From positions 1 to 64,000 of the IMG/VR virus record IMGVR_UViG_3300049448_000340: a stretch of DNA of 64,000 bases, one strand, 5' to 3'. Source of the stretch: a virus. This document shows positions 19,321 through 41,364 of this stretch, piece after piece (position 1 is the first letter of the stretch; every line of letters starts with the position of its first letter). The position numbers and the translations under genes are program-made. Under the pieces are notes generated by a model. The model was not told the DNA's origin. It made no database searches and saw only the letters and a program-made list of their open reading frames with translations.

Positions 19321-19850
19321 TGCCAGCCAAACCAGATCTGTGTGTCGACTTCGACGGTGTCATCCACTCCTACACCTCAGGATGGCATGGATCACACATC
19401 GTAGCTGACCCTCCTGTCCCAGGAGTCTTCCAATGGCTCTATAGGGCTCAACAGTACTGGAGGGTGAATATCTATTCCTCACGCTCAAAAGAAGCGGCAG
19501 GCATTCAAGCGATGAAGCTCTACTGTAAGGAACATGCGACCAAAGAGCTACAAACACCATCTGCGATCAAGGACTTCCTGCAGAACCTACAATGGCCGAC
19601 GCAGAAGCCTGCAGCCAACATGACGATCGATGATCGAGCATTCTGCTTCCAAGGCAACTGGGACGATCCGGCTCTCGACCCTCGAGTGCTTCTGCAGTTC
19701 AAACCGTGGAACAAGCGCGGCCCGGAGACTCGTACCCTTCCGTTTCACATTCAACACTTGATCGACGCCATCAACATTGACCAGAAGGACCTGGCTATCC
19801 ACTTGGAGGCCTCCATCCTCAAGGAATTGTACGGACCTGTGACAAGGTGA
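19317..19850 (+). CDS. HAD-superfamily phosphatase
   Basis: HAD motif I is DFDGVIH near residues 11-17, motif II is IYSSRS near residue 53 and the acidic motif is MTIDDRAF near residue 103. Small phage HAD proteins are usually nucleotide phosphatases. Overlaps the upstream gene by ATGA and is last before promoter P3. A nucleotidase role would fit the neighbouring dNTP enzymes. Confidence 0.8.
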   Translation: MMPAKPDLCVDFDGVIHSYTSGWHGSHIVADPPVPGVFQWLYRAQQYWRVNIYSSRSKEAAGIQAMKLYCKEHATKELQTPSAIKDFLQNLQWPTQKPAANMTIDDRAFCFQGNWDDPALDPRVLLQFKPWNKRGPETRTLPFHIQHLIDAINIDQKDLAIHLEASILKELYGPVTR

Positions 19851-19905
19851 CCCGACCAATTTCCACGGACCATAATTTTACCCTAGAGGAACCGCAAAAT
19901 AACTC

Positions 19906-19935
19906 TTGCGTGCCCCTTAGGATCTATTGTATAAT
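19906..19935 (+). promoter_or_regulatory. Phage promoter P3
   Basis: TTGCGT at 19906-19911, an 18-base spacer starting GCCCCTTAGGA, and TATAAT at 19930-19935. An upstream GCAAAATAACTC tract matches promoters P2 and P4. It drives the 181-aa gene and the structured region after it. Confidence 0.8.
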
Positions 19936-19995
19936 CTATTTGTAAGTTGGAGCTTACAAGCTTCAATGGGTACTAGATCAAGGAGAGGACAAGTT

Positions 19996-20541
19996 ATGGC
20001 ACAAGGACAACAGGATCGCCCGCAGGAAGCCATTCGCGAACCGGGTGCAGGGGCGTCGACCACGACCACATCGCCGGCGGCTTTGGCGACGGGATCGATG
20101 GCGAATACGGGAACGGTTGCCCCGACGACTGCGGCTCCGACCGACGGCAAGCCGGCGCCGACCGAAGAGCAGCTGCGTGCGGCTCGCGAGGTCGTTGCTC
20201 GGGCGAAGCAGGCGGGCGTCAAGCTGACGGCGTCGGGTGGGGGTCAGGCCCGCATCATGCTGCCGAACGGCGAATCGCGCGCTGCCTACATCAAGCGCCG
20301 GTGGGCCGAGAAGGCGGAACGCGCCACGATCGTGAAGGAGATCCAGAGCGCCGGCCCGCCGCACGACAAGTGCACCTACCAGATCGTCTTCGCCGCGACC
20401 AAGGGCCTCCCCGGCGGTCCCGACAAGGACAAGCCGACGGGCGATGACGGCAAGACCTATTCGCTGCAGCCGCCGAAGCCTGGCGCGTCGCCGGCAGCCT
20501 CGCAGACGAACCAGGGTGCATCGGCAGCCGCCGCGGAGTAA
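19996..20541 (+). CDS. Ala/Thr-rich hypothetical protein, 181 aa
   Basis: Long low-complexity ends (Ala, Thr, Pro, Gly) flank a compact centre (residues 55-135) with a basic YIKRRWAEKAERATIVKE helix. Codons are markedly richer in G and C than in neighbouring genes, which suggests strong expression. The ATG at 19996 has AGGAGAGG upstream; a longer ORF starts inside the promoter and is rejected. Role unknown; a basic core with disordered ends suits a nucleic-acid-binding protein. Confidence 0.75.
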   Translation: MAQGQQDRPQEAIREPGAGASTTTTSPAALATGSMANTGTVAPTTAAPTDGKPAPTEEQLRAAREVVARAKQAGVKLTASGGGQARIMLPNGESRAAYIKRRWAEKAERATIVKEIQSAGPPHDKCTYQIVFAATKGLPGGPDKDKPTGDDGKTYSLQPPKPGASPAASQTNQGASAAAAE

Positions 20542-21041
20542 CGAATCACTGGCCAGTGAGCTGAAGTACGGGCCGCTATGGGTTGGAGGCTAGCGCCTCC
20601 TTCCCTGCTCTCGTACGTTGGTCGGAAACAAACCATCGGCAAGGCCAGCGACCCGTACTCAGCGACGAGTCCAACGTTGTCAAGGTCCGACGTCATGAAC
20701 AGGATGCACGCCCCGGTACGCAGCCTGCAAGCATCGCCGAGGGCTCCTTTGATGGAGGTAGGCGAGGAAGCGGTAGGCTGTGGGCATAAGTCCTAGGCAA
20801 ACCCGGGGTATTGGAGGACGGCGGTTTGCGTGTGCTCCCTAGGTTGACCATGCTACGACCGTTCCCGAGGCTTTGGGGGTTGTGCCTGACGAACAGATGA
20901 CGCTGCGTGAAACAACCTCCACTGTTTTAGTAGGGACGGCTTCGGAGGGTGTGCCGTAAACACCTTCCACTCTGACGTGATGTGCCGCTATCGAGCTAGC
21001 GACATGTTACTCCTCAAAACTTGGCCCGGTAGCTGTAACTT
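20542..21041 (+). ncRNA. Candidate large structured RNA, about 450-500 nt
   Basis: A 500-base stretch without a convincing gene, dense in inverted repeats. Stems include GGAGGC/GCCTCC (20585-20600), ACGTTGG/CCAACGT (20615-20621 with 20671-20677), and nested CAGCCT, TCGCC and CTCC with GGAG, GGCGA and AGGCTG (20721-20780). Others are GCAAACC/GGTTTGC (20797-20829) inside CCTAGG/CCTAGG, GGGGGTTGT/ACAACCTCC (20875-20920), GGAGGGTGT/ACACCTTCC (20944-20968) and CGCTA/TAGCG (20986-21001). Two stems hold G-U pairs only if read on the plus strand. The loop of the 20944 hairpin can pair with ACGGC at 20936-20940, a possible pseudoknot. Read from P3. Confidence 0.55.
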
Positions 21042-21599
21042 ATGGACTCGCCCCAGGCGCTAACACTTGCTGAGTTAGTCGGCGAAGGAGCGGTTTCGCA
21101 GCTGCCGGGCTCTTCTTTTTTCGAGTTCTACCAAAAGGTAAAGGGGCGACCACCAGTCGAAACCCTACCGTACGAGATTATAGGCTTGGACCCTGGAGAG
21201 ACCACAGGCGTCAGTGTTTGGACCAGGACAGGCTCGGAATTCCAGGTGCAGTCATTCCAGATCAACACCTCCATCATCGAATGGGGCGTTGACAAGTTTA
21301 ACATCCTACTCCAACGTTCTCCAGGCAAGTGTGTAGTCATAGAGAACTACCGCGTGTATAGTTGGAAGGCCAAGATACATAGCTGGCAGGAGCTCCTCAC
21401 TCCCCGGTTGATCGGGGTGGCTGAGACCTTCTGCCGTCTGGGTTCGATCCCGATCGTCAAGCAGATGGCACAACAAGGGAAGTCGTTCGCAACTGACGAC
21501 AAGCTAGAACAATGGGGCCTCTACCTTAAGGGGAGACCTCATGCCATGGATGCTACACGTCACGTCTGTCAGCTACTACTCTTCGGAGAATGGAAGTAA
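21042..21599 (+). CDS. RuvC-like Holliday junction resolvase
   Basis: RNase H-fold resolvase. The first catalytic Asp is in IIGLDPGETTG near residue 48, the Glu in VVIENYRVY near residue 97, and the C-terminal acidic residue in HAMDATRH near residue 167. Such phage resolvases cut branched DNA before packaging. The first 40 residues precede the domain and may be partly non-native, since no strong ribosome binding site is seen at the ATG. Confidence 0.85.
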   Translation: MDSPQALTLAELVGEGAVSQLPGSSFFEFYQKVKGRPPVETLPYEIIGLDPGETTGVSVWTRTGSEFQVQSFQINTSIIEWGVDKFNILLQRSPGKCVVIENYRVYSWKAKIHSWQELLTPRLIGVAETFCRLGSIPIVKQMAQQGKSFATDDKLEQWGLYLKGRPHAMDATRHVCQLLLFGEWK

Positions 21600-25523: not shown

Positions 25524-26957
25524 ATGGACTCCTCCCGTCACCTCGAGGATTTTGTAGCATCTCTCAGTAAAGGAGAGATTGTCCTCTCATACCTGAACCT
25601 TGCTGGGATCGAACGAAAGGCGATCGCACACATGAACGAAGTTGTCGACTACTTCTTCAATACACAGCCTGCAGACCGTGCGACAGCGGAGAGGGCTATC
25701 CTCACTTTCCACCACCATGCTAACGTCCATGGAAACCAAAATGAGTGGCTGGACCAGAAACCACAGTTCATCTGGTGTCAGTCTCCCCAAGCGATGGTCG
25801 TCATCTCCAAGGTCCTCAGCGACATCCATGAAGGCACTCGGCCAGTAAAGCCCTCAGGGATGCGTCCAGGCCCGGGCGCCAAGATCCACGCACCTGCGCG
25901 ACTTCAGAACTCGGTCCGGGGAGACACTCCTGTCGAGTATCTAATCGGACAGGCCACAGATGTCTTTGACTCCCGAGGACTGGACATCAGCTTAAGGGCT
26001 ATGGGGACAGTCTCAGGACACTGGTCCTCGACCGTGGAGAACGAGACGCTAGACAGCCTGTTTCGCGGAACCAGAAGAGGAGGCTCGGTCCTACGAGGAA
26101 CTTGGCCATGGAGCCTGGAGAACATTGCAAGCCAAATCAGGTTCTCGATTAAGACCAACCCGGATACTACCTTGTACTCTGAGCAGGGGGGTAACGGGAA
26201 AGACGGGGAGTTAGTTGAACGCAGCCTAGCAGCTACCGAACCACATCTGTCACAGATCAAGCTTGACCCCAAGTTCTACGGGCGGAGGCTCAAGCTGAGG
26301 CATGCATGGTTAGGACAACATGCAGTAGACGATCACTCCTATACAGATCTTGCATGGGCGCTACGTAGGTCATGTAACTGGGTCATGGACTATGGCTCAT
26401 TCGTGTTCTGCTGCGAGCGTCCTGCAGAGATTCACTACCAAGACCTCGGCACAGGAACTACAAGGTATCGGCTCCACAATGAGAATGGGCCTGCAGTTAG
26501 GTTCCACGACGGCTGGCAGATGCATGTGCTTAGTGGAGTCGGTGTACCAGACTTCGTTGTCGAGAAACCCCACTTGATCACTACATTCAAGATCAACCGA
26601 GAAGGGAACCAGGAAGTCCGGCGGATCATGATCGACCGCTTCAAGTTCGGCGAGCAGCCCTCAGGGATCGCCGCTTACGTGATCGCCTGTGGAGCAAAGC
26701 GCATCAGCCATGACGAACGCTGGGGAACCCTCTGGAGGTTCAGGAACGCACAGCTTGCGAGATCGATGGGCGAGATCGAGGACGAGACATACGTCATGCT
26801 CGAGGTCGTTAATCGCTCTCCAGAACCCGATGGGTCGTTCAAACGCTACTACTTGCGGGTTCCGCCTAACATGCGCACGGCACATCAAGCGGCAGCCTGG
26901 ACATTCGGGTTCACCGGTGCAGAGCTCGACCTCTACTACCCCTTACAGGAGTCGTAA
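25524..26957 (+). CDS. DUF6745-like protein, 477 aa
   Basis: The C-terminal 170 residues follow the pattern of DUF6745: HNENGPAVRFHDGWQMHVLSG, then INREGNQEVRRIMIDRF, HDERWGTLWRF and a closing YYLRVPPNMRTAHQAAAWTFG. The N-terminal half is helical and unrecognised. The family is mostly bacterial and of unknown function; a phage copy is unusual. Its size and position among accessory genes would fit a host-interaction protein. The ATG at 25524 lacks a good Shine-Dalgarno. Confidence 0.65.
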   Translation: MDSSRHLEDFVASLSKGEIVLSYLNLAGIERKAIAHMNEVVDYFFNTQPADRATAERAILTFHHHANVHGNQNEWLDQKPQFIWCQSPQAMVVISKVLSDIHEGTRPVKPSGMRPGPGAKIHAPARLQNSVRGDTPVEYLIGQATDVFDSRGLDISLRAMGTVSGHWSSTVENETLDSLFRGTRRGGSVLRGTWPWSLENIASQIRFSIKTNPDTTLYSEQGGNGKDGELVERSLAATEPHLSQIKLDPKFYGRRLKLRHAWLGQHAVDDHSYTDLAWALRRSCNWVMDYGSFVFCCERPAEIHYQDLGTGTTRYRLHNENGPAVRFHDGWQMHVLSGVGVPDFVVEKPHLITTFKINREGNQEVRRIMIDRFKFGEQPSGIAAYVIACGAKRISHDERWGTLWRFRNAQLARSMGEIEDETYVMLEVVNRSPEPDGSFKRYYLRVPPNMRTAHQAAAWTFGFTGAELDLYYPLQES

Positions 26958-31369: not shown

Positions 31370-31726
31370 ATGGCATTGATCTACCGCAGGCTCGCTTTGA
31401 TAGCGGGGGCCCGAGCTGAGATCCAGCCCTTGGCGAGAGCCTGGGGAGTACTCATCTGGGGTCACATTGGGAGGTACAACCTGAGAGCACTGGAGTGCTA
31501 CCCCCAGCTCAAAGAGGCCCGAGCGAGACGGAGAGAGGTAAACGGTGACGGTGTTGCGTTGGTAGAGTCCGTAGAGAACATTCTTTATCCCCTTTCAGCC
31601 TATACAGCAATGTACGATACTGAAGTACACAAGCCTCCGCCCCTACCTCCGACGGAGAAGGACCTCCAGCCCTTTAGCCGCGTGGAAGATGTCTACGACC
31701 TGCCTAGGTTACGGAAACGCGGTTGA
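31370..31726 (+). CDS. Hypothetical protein, 118 aa
   Basis: Unrecognised; Arg-rich helical first half, Pro-rich stretch near residue 90 (KPPPLPPTEKD). Last gene before promoter P5. Confidence 0.6.
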   Translation: MALIYRRLALIAGARAEIQPLARAWGVLIWGHIGRYNLRALECYPQLKEARARRREVNGDGVALVESVENILYPLSAYTAMYDTEVHKPPPLPPTEKDLQPFSRVEDVYDLPRLRKRG

Positions 31727-40995: not shown

Positions 40996-41364
40996 ATGCC
41001 TAGGAAGCGTATCACCACAGTAGGTCAGGATTATACGATCCTGGCTAAGCAGATACCAGACAAGGCGATAGCGAAGGCCTACGGCCTGACTGAACGCCAG
41101 ATCTGGTCGAGGCGCTATACTCTTACCTCTCGCAGCAGGGTCGAGCCGAAGAAACCGTCTCCCCTGAAAGGTCGTGAAGAAGAGATCAGGTACCTGCTAA
41201 ACGTTGAACGACTGTATCTATCACAGGCAGCAGACCGACTAGGGGTTTCTCTTGGGACCCTTTCCGGGTATGTTCGAAGGCATAGGCTCCGGCAACAGGC
41301 CGTTGTGAGGCGCTTTGACCATCCTAGGGTTATGGTTACTAGACAACAAGACCAACACAGCTGA
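40996..41364 (+). CDS. Putative HTH protein, 122 aa
   Basis: Two helix-turn-helix-like segments: AKAYGLTERQIWSRRY near residue 27 and LSQAADRLGVSLGTLSGYVR near 76. Basic throughout. It probably binds DNA, possibly as a regulator of the RNR operon. Its end is only 7 bases before the RNR start. Confidence 0.65.
   Translation: MPRKRITTVGQDYTILAKQIPDKAIAKAYGLTERQIWSRRYTLTSRSRVEPKKPSPLKGREEEIRYLLNVERLYLSQAADRLGVSLGTLSGYVRRHRLRQQAVVRRFDHPRVMVTRQQDQHS

Follow-up and report, generated by a model that had tools for sequence, protein, structure and literature searches.

A candidate structured RNA between a small HTH-like gene and a ruvC-like gene in a virus genome

The window analysed here comprises bases 1-64000 of a virus record of 80,218 bases (IMGVR_UViG_3300049448_000340). 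According to a simple gene caller, the genes are all on the plus strand up to about 49.6 kb. At the locus studied, a promoter and the 181-aa gene are followed by a noncoding stretch, an intrinsic terminator and a RuvC-like ORF, Table 1. The 181-aa protein has a predicted three-helix core (pLDDT about 84), and in its family HTH Pfam matches are found in one member only. The conserved domain of the family also occurs in a bacterial protein with an apparent N-terminal membrane anchor, in three gammaproteobacterial MAGs (loci L188, L189, L190). Elsewhere in the window, at 25524-26957, this phage encodes a DUF6745 protein of 477 aa (Pfam E 5e-38).

Table 1. Features of the locus in window coordinates, with the evidence on which each assignment rests.
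Feature	Position	Strand	Evidence
Promoter of the 181-aa gene: TTGCGT, about 18 nt, TATAAT	19905-19935	+	Sequence; relatives
181-aa gene, encoding a small HTH-like protein whose tails are of low complexity; conserved next to ruvC	19996-20541	+	Homologues, prediction
Stretch without coding signal, probably transcribed; candidate for a structured RNA or a long 3' UTR	20542-21119	+	Codon usage, position, fold z
14-base perfect palindrome TCACTGGCCAGTGA, hairpin with GGCC loop	20546-20559	+	Sequence; fold
Three-way-junction domain with hairpins 20580-20605 and 20607-20645	20560-20663	+	Fold; local z
Nested hairpin, 9 + 5 + 4 bp	20720-20781	+	Fold
9-bp hairpin, candidate H-type pseudoknot ACGGC:GCCGT	20936-20968	+	Sequence; hairpin probability 0.99
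13-bp hairpin, one mismatch, three G-U pairs	20977-21010	+	Fold
Intrinsic terminator: 14-bp stem 21023-21036/21098-21111, structured loop, then TTCTTTTTT	21023-21119	+	Fold, shuffles
RuvC/RNase H-like ORF	21042-21599	+	phrog_1981 3e-15; phrog_1770 Holliday junction resolvase

The stretch between the stop codon of the 181-aa gene and the terminator has no coding signal. From about 20530 to 21040 the six-frame codon-usage scores, with stop codons tolerated, are at the shuffled level: the score of the best frame is -0.02 to 0.15 bits/codon, against a median of 0.06 for shuffled sequence and 0.31 for genes. A protein gene or a recent pseudogene was rejected on the basis of this codon usage. The initial annotation described a gene-free region of 500 bases that ends at 21041. 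The region is indeed gene-free, but its boundary is not at 21041: a 14-bp stem followed by TTCTTTTTT is found past this position, and the stretch, which is probably transcribed, therefore extends through the terminator to about 21119, where the next ORF is already predicted to have begun. The other long gaps of the gene caller that were checked (354, 405, 482 and 324 nt) hold plausible ORFs, for instance 31370-31726 and 40996-41364, which leaves 20542-21119 as the longest true gap of the window.

The start of the RuvC-like ORF is uncertain. In an alignment of twelve RuvC-like proteins most relatives have nothing that matches its first 24 residues, and it is these residues that overlap the terminator. 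Two start candidates were considered, ATG at 21042, which has no Shine-Dalgarno sequence, and CTG at 21102, which is near the expected start and lies behind AAGGAG.

The strong promoter of the 181-aa gene has a weak -35 box, and for that reason it is absent from the list of the consensus promoter scan; the same scan found no promoter of the noncoding stretch's own. Most relatives examined have a promoter-like sequence with TATAAT in the corresponding position ahead of their homologue of this gene. A plus-strand transcript read from this promoter had been proposed before, and the sequence signals support it, with a strong intrinsic terminator, not mentioned earlier, closing the unit. A stem as long at the terminator site was obtained in 4 of 5000 shuffles, and the order gene, terminator, ruvC is the one expected of a 181-aa transcription unit and is shared by about 40 related phage loci. 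It is the terminator that sets the strand, since the stability of the minus strand is raised as well (z -2.0) and energy alone is insufficient. The terminator after the 181-aa-family gene mostly lies 30-116 nt past the stop codon in relatives and about 570 nt past it here, and among the loci examined only the window has a long noncoding stretch ahead of it. Because about 570 nt precede this gene's terminator only here, 20542-21119 is probably transcribed together with the 181-aa gene.

In the predicted fold, fourteen helices are robust to changed flanks and to a limit on the pairing span. The three-way-junction domain is closed by 15-16 bp (20560-20577/20647-20663). Several elements of the initial annotation are recovered: the three-level nested hairpin is present (20720-20728/20773-20781, 20734-20738/20761-20765 and 20744-20747/20754-20757), and so is the 9-bp stem (20944-20952/20960-20968), whose loop GCCGT (20953-20957) is complementary to ACGGC (20936-20940). 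G-U pairs had been noted at two stems; they are found in four helices and make up 8 of the 86 pairs. The stems that had been named do exist, but not in excess of chance, as the stem count in 20542-21041 is not significant against dinucleotide shuffles (p about 0.08-0.38). In the candidate pseudoknot, loops of 3, 0 and 2 nt surround stems of 5 and 9 bp. In H-type pseudoknots a 2-nt loop is sterically tight against a 5-bp stem, and we therefore rate the pseudoknot at 20936-20968, as drawn, as possible but not likely.

The fold energy of the 500 nt originally delimited has a z-score of -1.76. For 20543-21119 it is -3.03, with none of 200 shuffles as low, and of 35 control segments taken from this genome 2 are equally or more stable. 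Locally, the signal stands out most at 20550-20699, with z-scores of -3.1 on the plus and -4.7 on the minus strand. The evidence for structure in 20543-21119 beyond chance is moderate, not overwhelming. Two control segments, 501-1077 (z -3.7) and 1801-2377 (z -4.3), even exceed the candidate in stability.

Homologues were sought at several levels of sensitivity. Three other IMG/VR contigs contain the region at 100% identity, and being identical they represent one population with no variation to use. No Rfam match was obtained with cmscan, for the window at the gathering score or for 19800-21300 at E-values up to 10; the 4227 models, group I intron included, gave only chance-level scores. This Rfam/Infernal search agrees with the earlier failure to match the stretch to a known large phage RNA. 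Sensitive BLAST against cultured phages and plasmids gave chance-level matches only, and neither BLAST nor nhmmer found a homologue of the stretch in any of the fetched relatives. Three single-sequence covariance models run on 746 kb of relatives, and one run on 27 whole records, found the window itself only; as models built from one sequence are weak, absence in these searches is not proof. A degenerate pattern of the pseudoknot hairpin, searched in all viral contigs, matched the identical contigs and sequences without flanking similarity. In bacterial genomes, searched for prophage relatives, there were only distant 181-aa homologues in gammaproteobacterial MAGs, with the RNA absent. A shared 15-mer, CGTTGTCAAGGTCCG, was considered as a conserved element and rejected: its 37 matches in viral contigs are about the chance number, and only those in the identical contigs have similar flanks. 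None of these searches found a divergent homologue from which covariation could be read.

Three starting points, namely the neighbouring 955-aa gene, the RuvC family and the family of the 181-aa protein, led to the same locus in related phages. Among cultured relatives, the 955-aa gene was found only in MaInes and StAshley, two Brevundimonas phages whose protein is about 34% identical. A 181-aa-family gene precedes ruvC in about 40 phage loci, and what lies between the two differs. HNH endonucleases and sigma-like proteins, recognised by eye from translations, are encoded between the terminator and ruvC in five loci (L134, L141, L142, L145, L148). HNH-type ORFs are present in all six of L134, L141, L142, L144, L145 and L148, and sigma-factor-like ORFs in most of them. 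This content suggests that the slot is a homing hot spot. Other loci have a 535-aa protein (L049) or small ORFs (L050 and L061) in the slot.

RNA genes are found there too. In L095 (IMGVR_UViG_3300045413_000166), positions 1261-1634 between the 181-aa-family gene and ruvC encode a permuted two-piece tmRNA with the tag ANDSVYAVAA, matched by RF04321 at 113 bits and also called by ARAGORN, so that RNA cargo in the slot has a precedent. A tRNA lies directly upstream of ruvC in two loci (L165:3711-3782 and L176:3761-3844). Judged from these gene orders, what occupies the slot varies, and RNA genes can be among its contents. Strongly folding noncoding stretches also follow the 181-aa-family gene at L122:2679-2996 and L094:4280-4530, the former with a weak, sub-threshold tRNA-like match.

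Our best explanation, to which we give about an even chance, is that 20542-21119 is a lineage-specific structured RNA, either an extended 3' UTR or a noncoding RNA processed out of one. The promoter of the 181-aa gene would drive joint transcription of the gene and the stretch, the terminator at about 21119 would release the transcript, and the RNA would fill the variable cargo slot ahead of ruvC as the tmRNA gene does in L095. Most simply, the folded 3' end would protect or regulate the 181-aa mRNA; alternatively, a separate processed RNA may act in trans, and the data fit both. Transcription and a stable processed RNA are what we infer from this arrangement, and a function of the folded RNA is put forward more weakly than its folding and stability. 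Against a structured RNA stand its occurrence in only one viral population, the failure of the scan to find a promoter of its own, the two control segments that fold as well and a stem number not above that of shuffles, and because no homologue was found the reading is unproven. Taken from the sequence, a candidate structured RNA outside the known large phage RNA families is partly supported. A reading as a previously undescribed class of large structured RNA in phages, about 570 nt long and functional in its own right, is clearly unlikely; such an RNA would be made in quantity from the unit of the HTH-like protein, in a slot where relatives carry RNA genes.

A serious rival is that the stretch is non-functional filler left by traffic through the slot, i.e. 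a decayed insert, for instance a former mobile or cargo gene, with stems as in any GC-rich sequence and the terminator alone selected. The apparent hot spot, with HNH endonuclease genes, sigma-like genes and small ORFs in relatives, fits this, as do a stem number within chance and the conservation that the homologue searches failed to find. However, no frame has a residual coding signal, so that gene decay, if any, would have to be old, the far end still has its complete terminator, and the three-way-junction domain reaches local significance. To our knowledge, useless DNA of 570 nt is also rarely kept in phage genomes, and we regard filler as somewhat unlikely.

The stretch could also be a regulatory leader of ruvC, in which ruvC is kept in check by an attenuator made up of the folded RNA and the terminator. 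Such an attenuator is conceivable because the candidate starts of the ruvC frame lie in the terminator, and the unmatched N-terminus of the RuvC-like protein in most relatives is in line with it. As the terminator hairpin contains both ATG 21042 and the Shine-Dalgarno-like AAGGAG, ruvC would need read-through or a translating ribosome. In relatives, however, a terminator is also present between the two genes although no large RNA accompanies it. Such a leader is thus not required to account for the terminator, and we consider an attenuator quite improbable. Even less credit, as highly improbable, goes to a trans-acting antisense RNA in which 20674-20697 pairs with the transcript at 240-263. 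In a search of the phage's own genome 22 of the 24 bases are complementary (E = 7.7e-4) and the segment 20674-20697 is weakly structured, but shuffles (5 of 100) and control segments (4 of 40) reach this score as well, and the target is locked in a hairpin of -36 kcal/mol. The pairing is not significant against these controls and was rejected. The segment 20674-20697 is a 24-base inverted copy of 240-263 (22 identical), the latter in the strong hairpin after a 63-aa gene.

Only a few large structured RNAs are known from phages, mostly of unknown function. If the structured RNA is real, the locus offers a defined promoter, a terminator and a conserved address, from the 181-aa gene to ruvC, at which further phage RNAs can be sought; this address has already given the permuted tmRNA in one relative. 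If the stretch is filler, it is an example of convincing stems that arise unselected in GC-rich phage sequence.

ROOL and GOLLD are large ornate RNAs of phages and prophages (PMC12286853). Like them, the candidate is phage-encoded and noncoding, with a comparable size range and extensive predicted stems (PMC12286853), whereas it matches neither Rfam model even at E-values up to 10. ROOL and GOLLD are often near tRNA islands, and the window (1-64000) has no tRNA. Homo-oligomeric assembly is a trait of ROOL and GOLLD. The GGCC loop of the candidate, a palindrome, is reminiscent of the symmetric kissing-loop tetranucleotide of OLE (PMC12286853), as an analogy only. Permuted two-piece tmRNAs of phages are described by RF04321 and include that of the Melnitz phage (PMC9004378). 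The RF04321 RNA of L095 occupies the slot equivalent to that of the candidate. In the whole 80-kb record RF04321 has no match at E-values up to 10, ARAGORN calls no tRNA or tmRNA in the window, and no T-arm-like sequence was found on the plus strand; the candidate was therefore rejected as a tRNA or tmRNA. Structured 3' UTRs and 3'-UTR-derived RNAs occur in bacteria and phages. At about 570 nt the candidate is unusually long for a structured 3' UTR, but like these it sits after a promoter-bearing gene and ends at the terminator of that unit.
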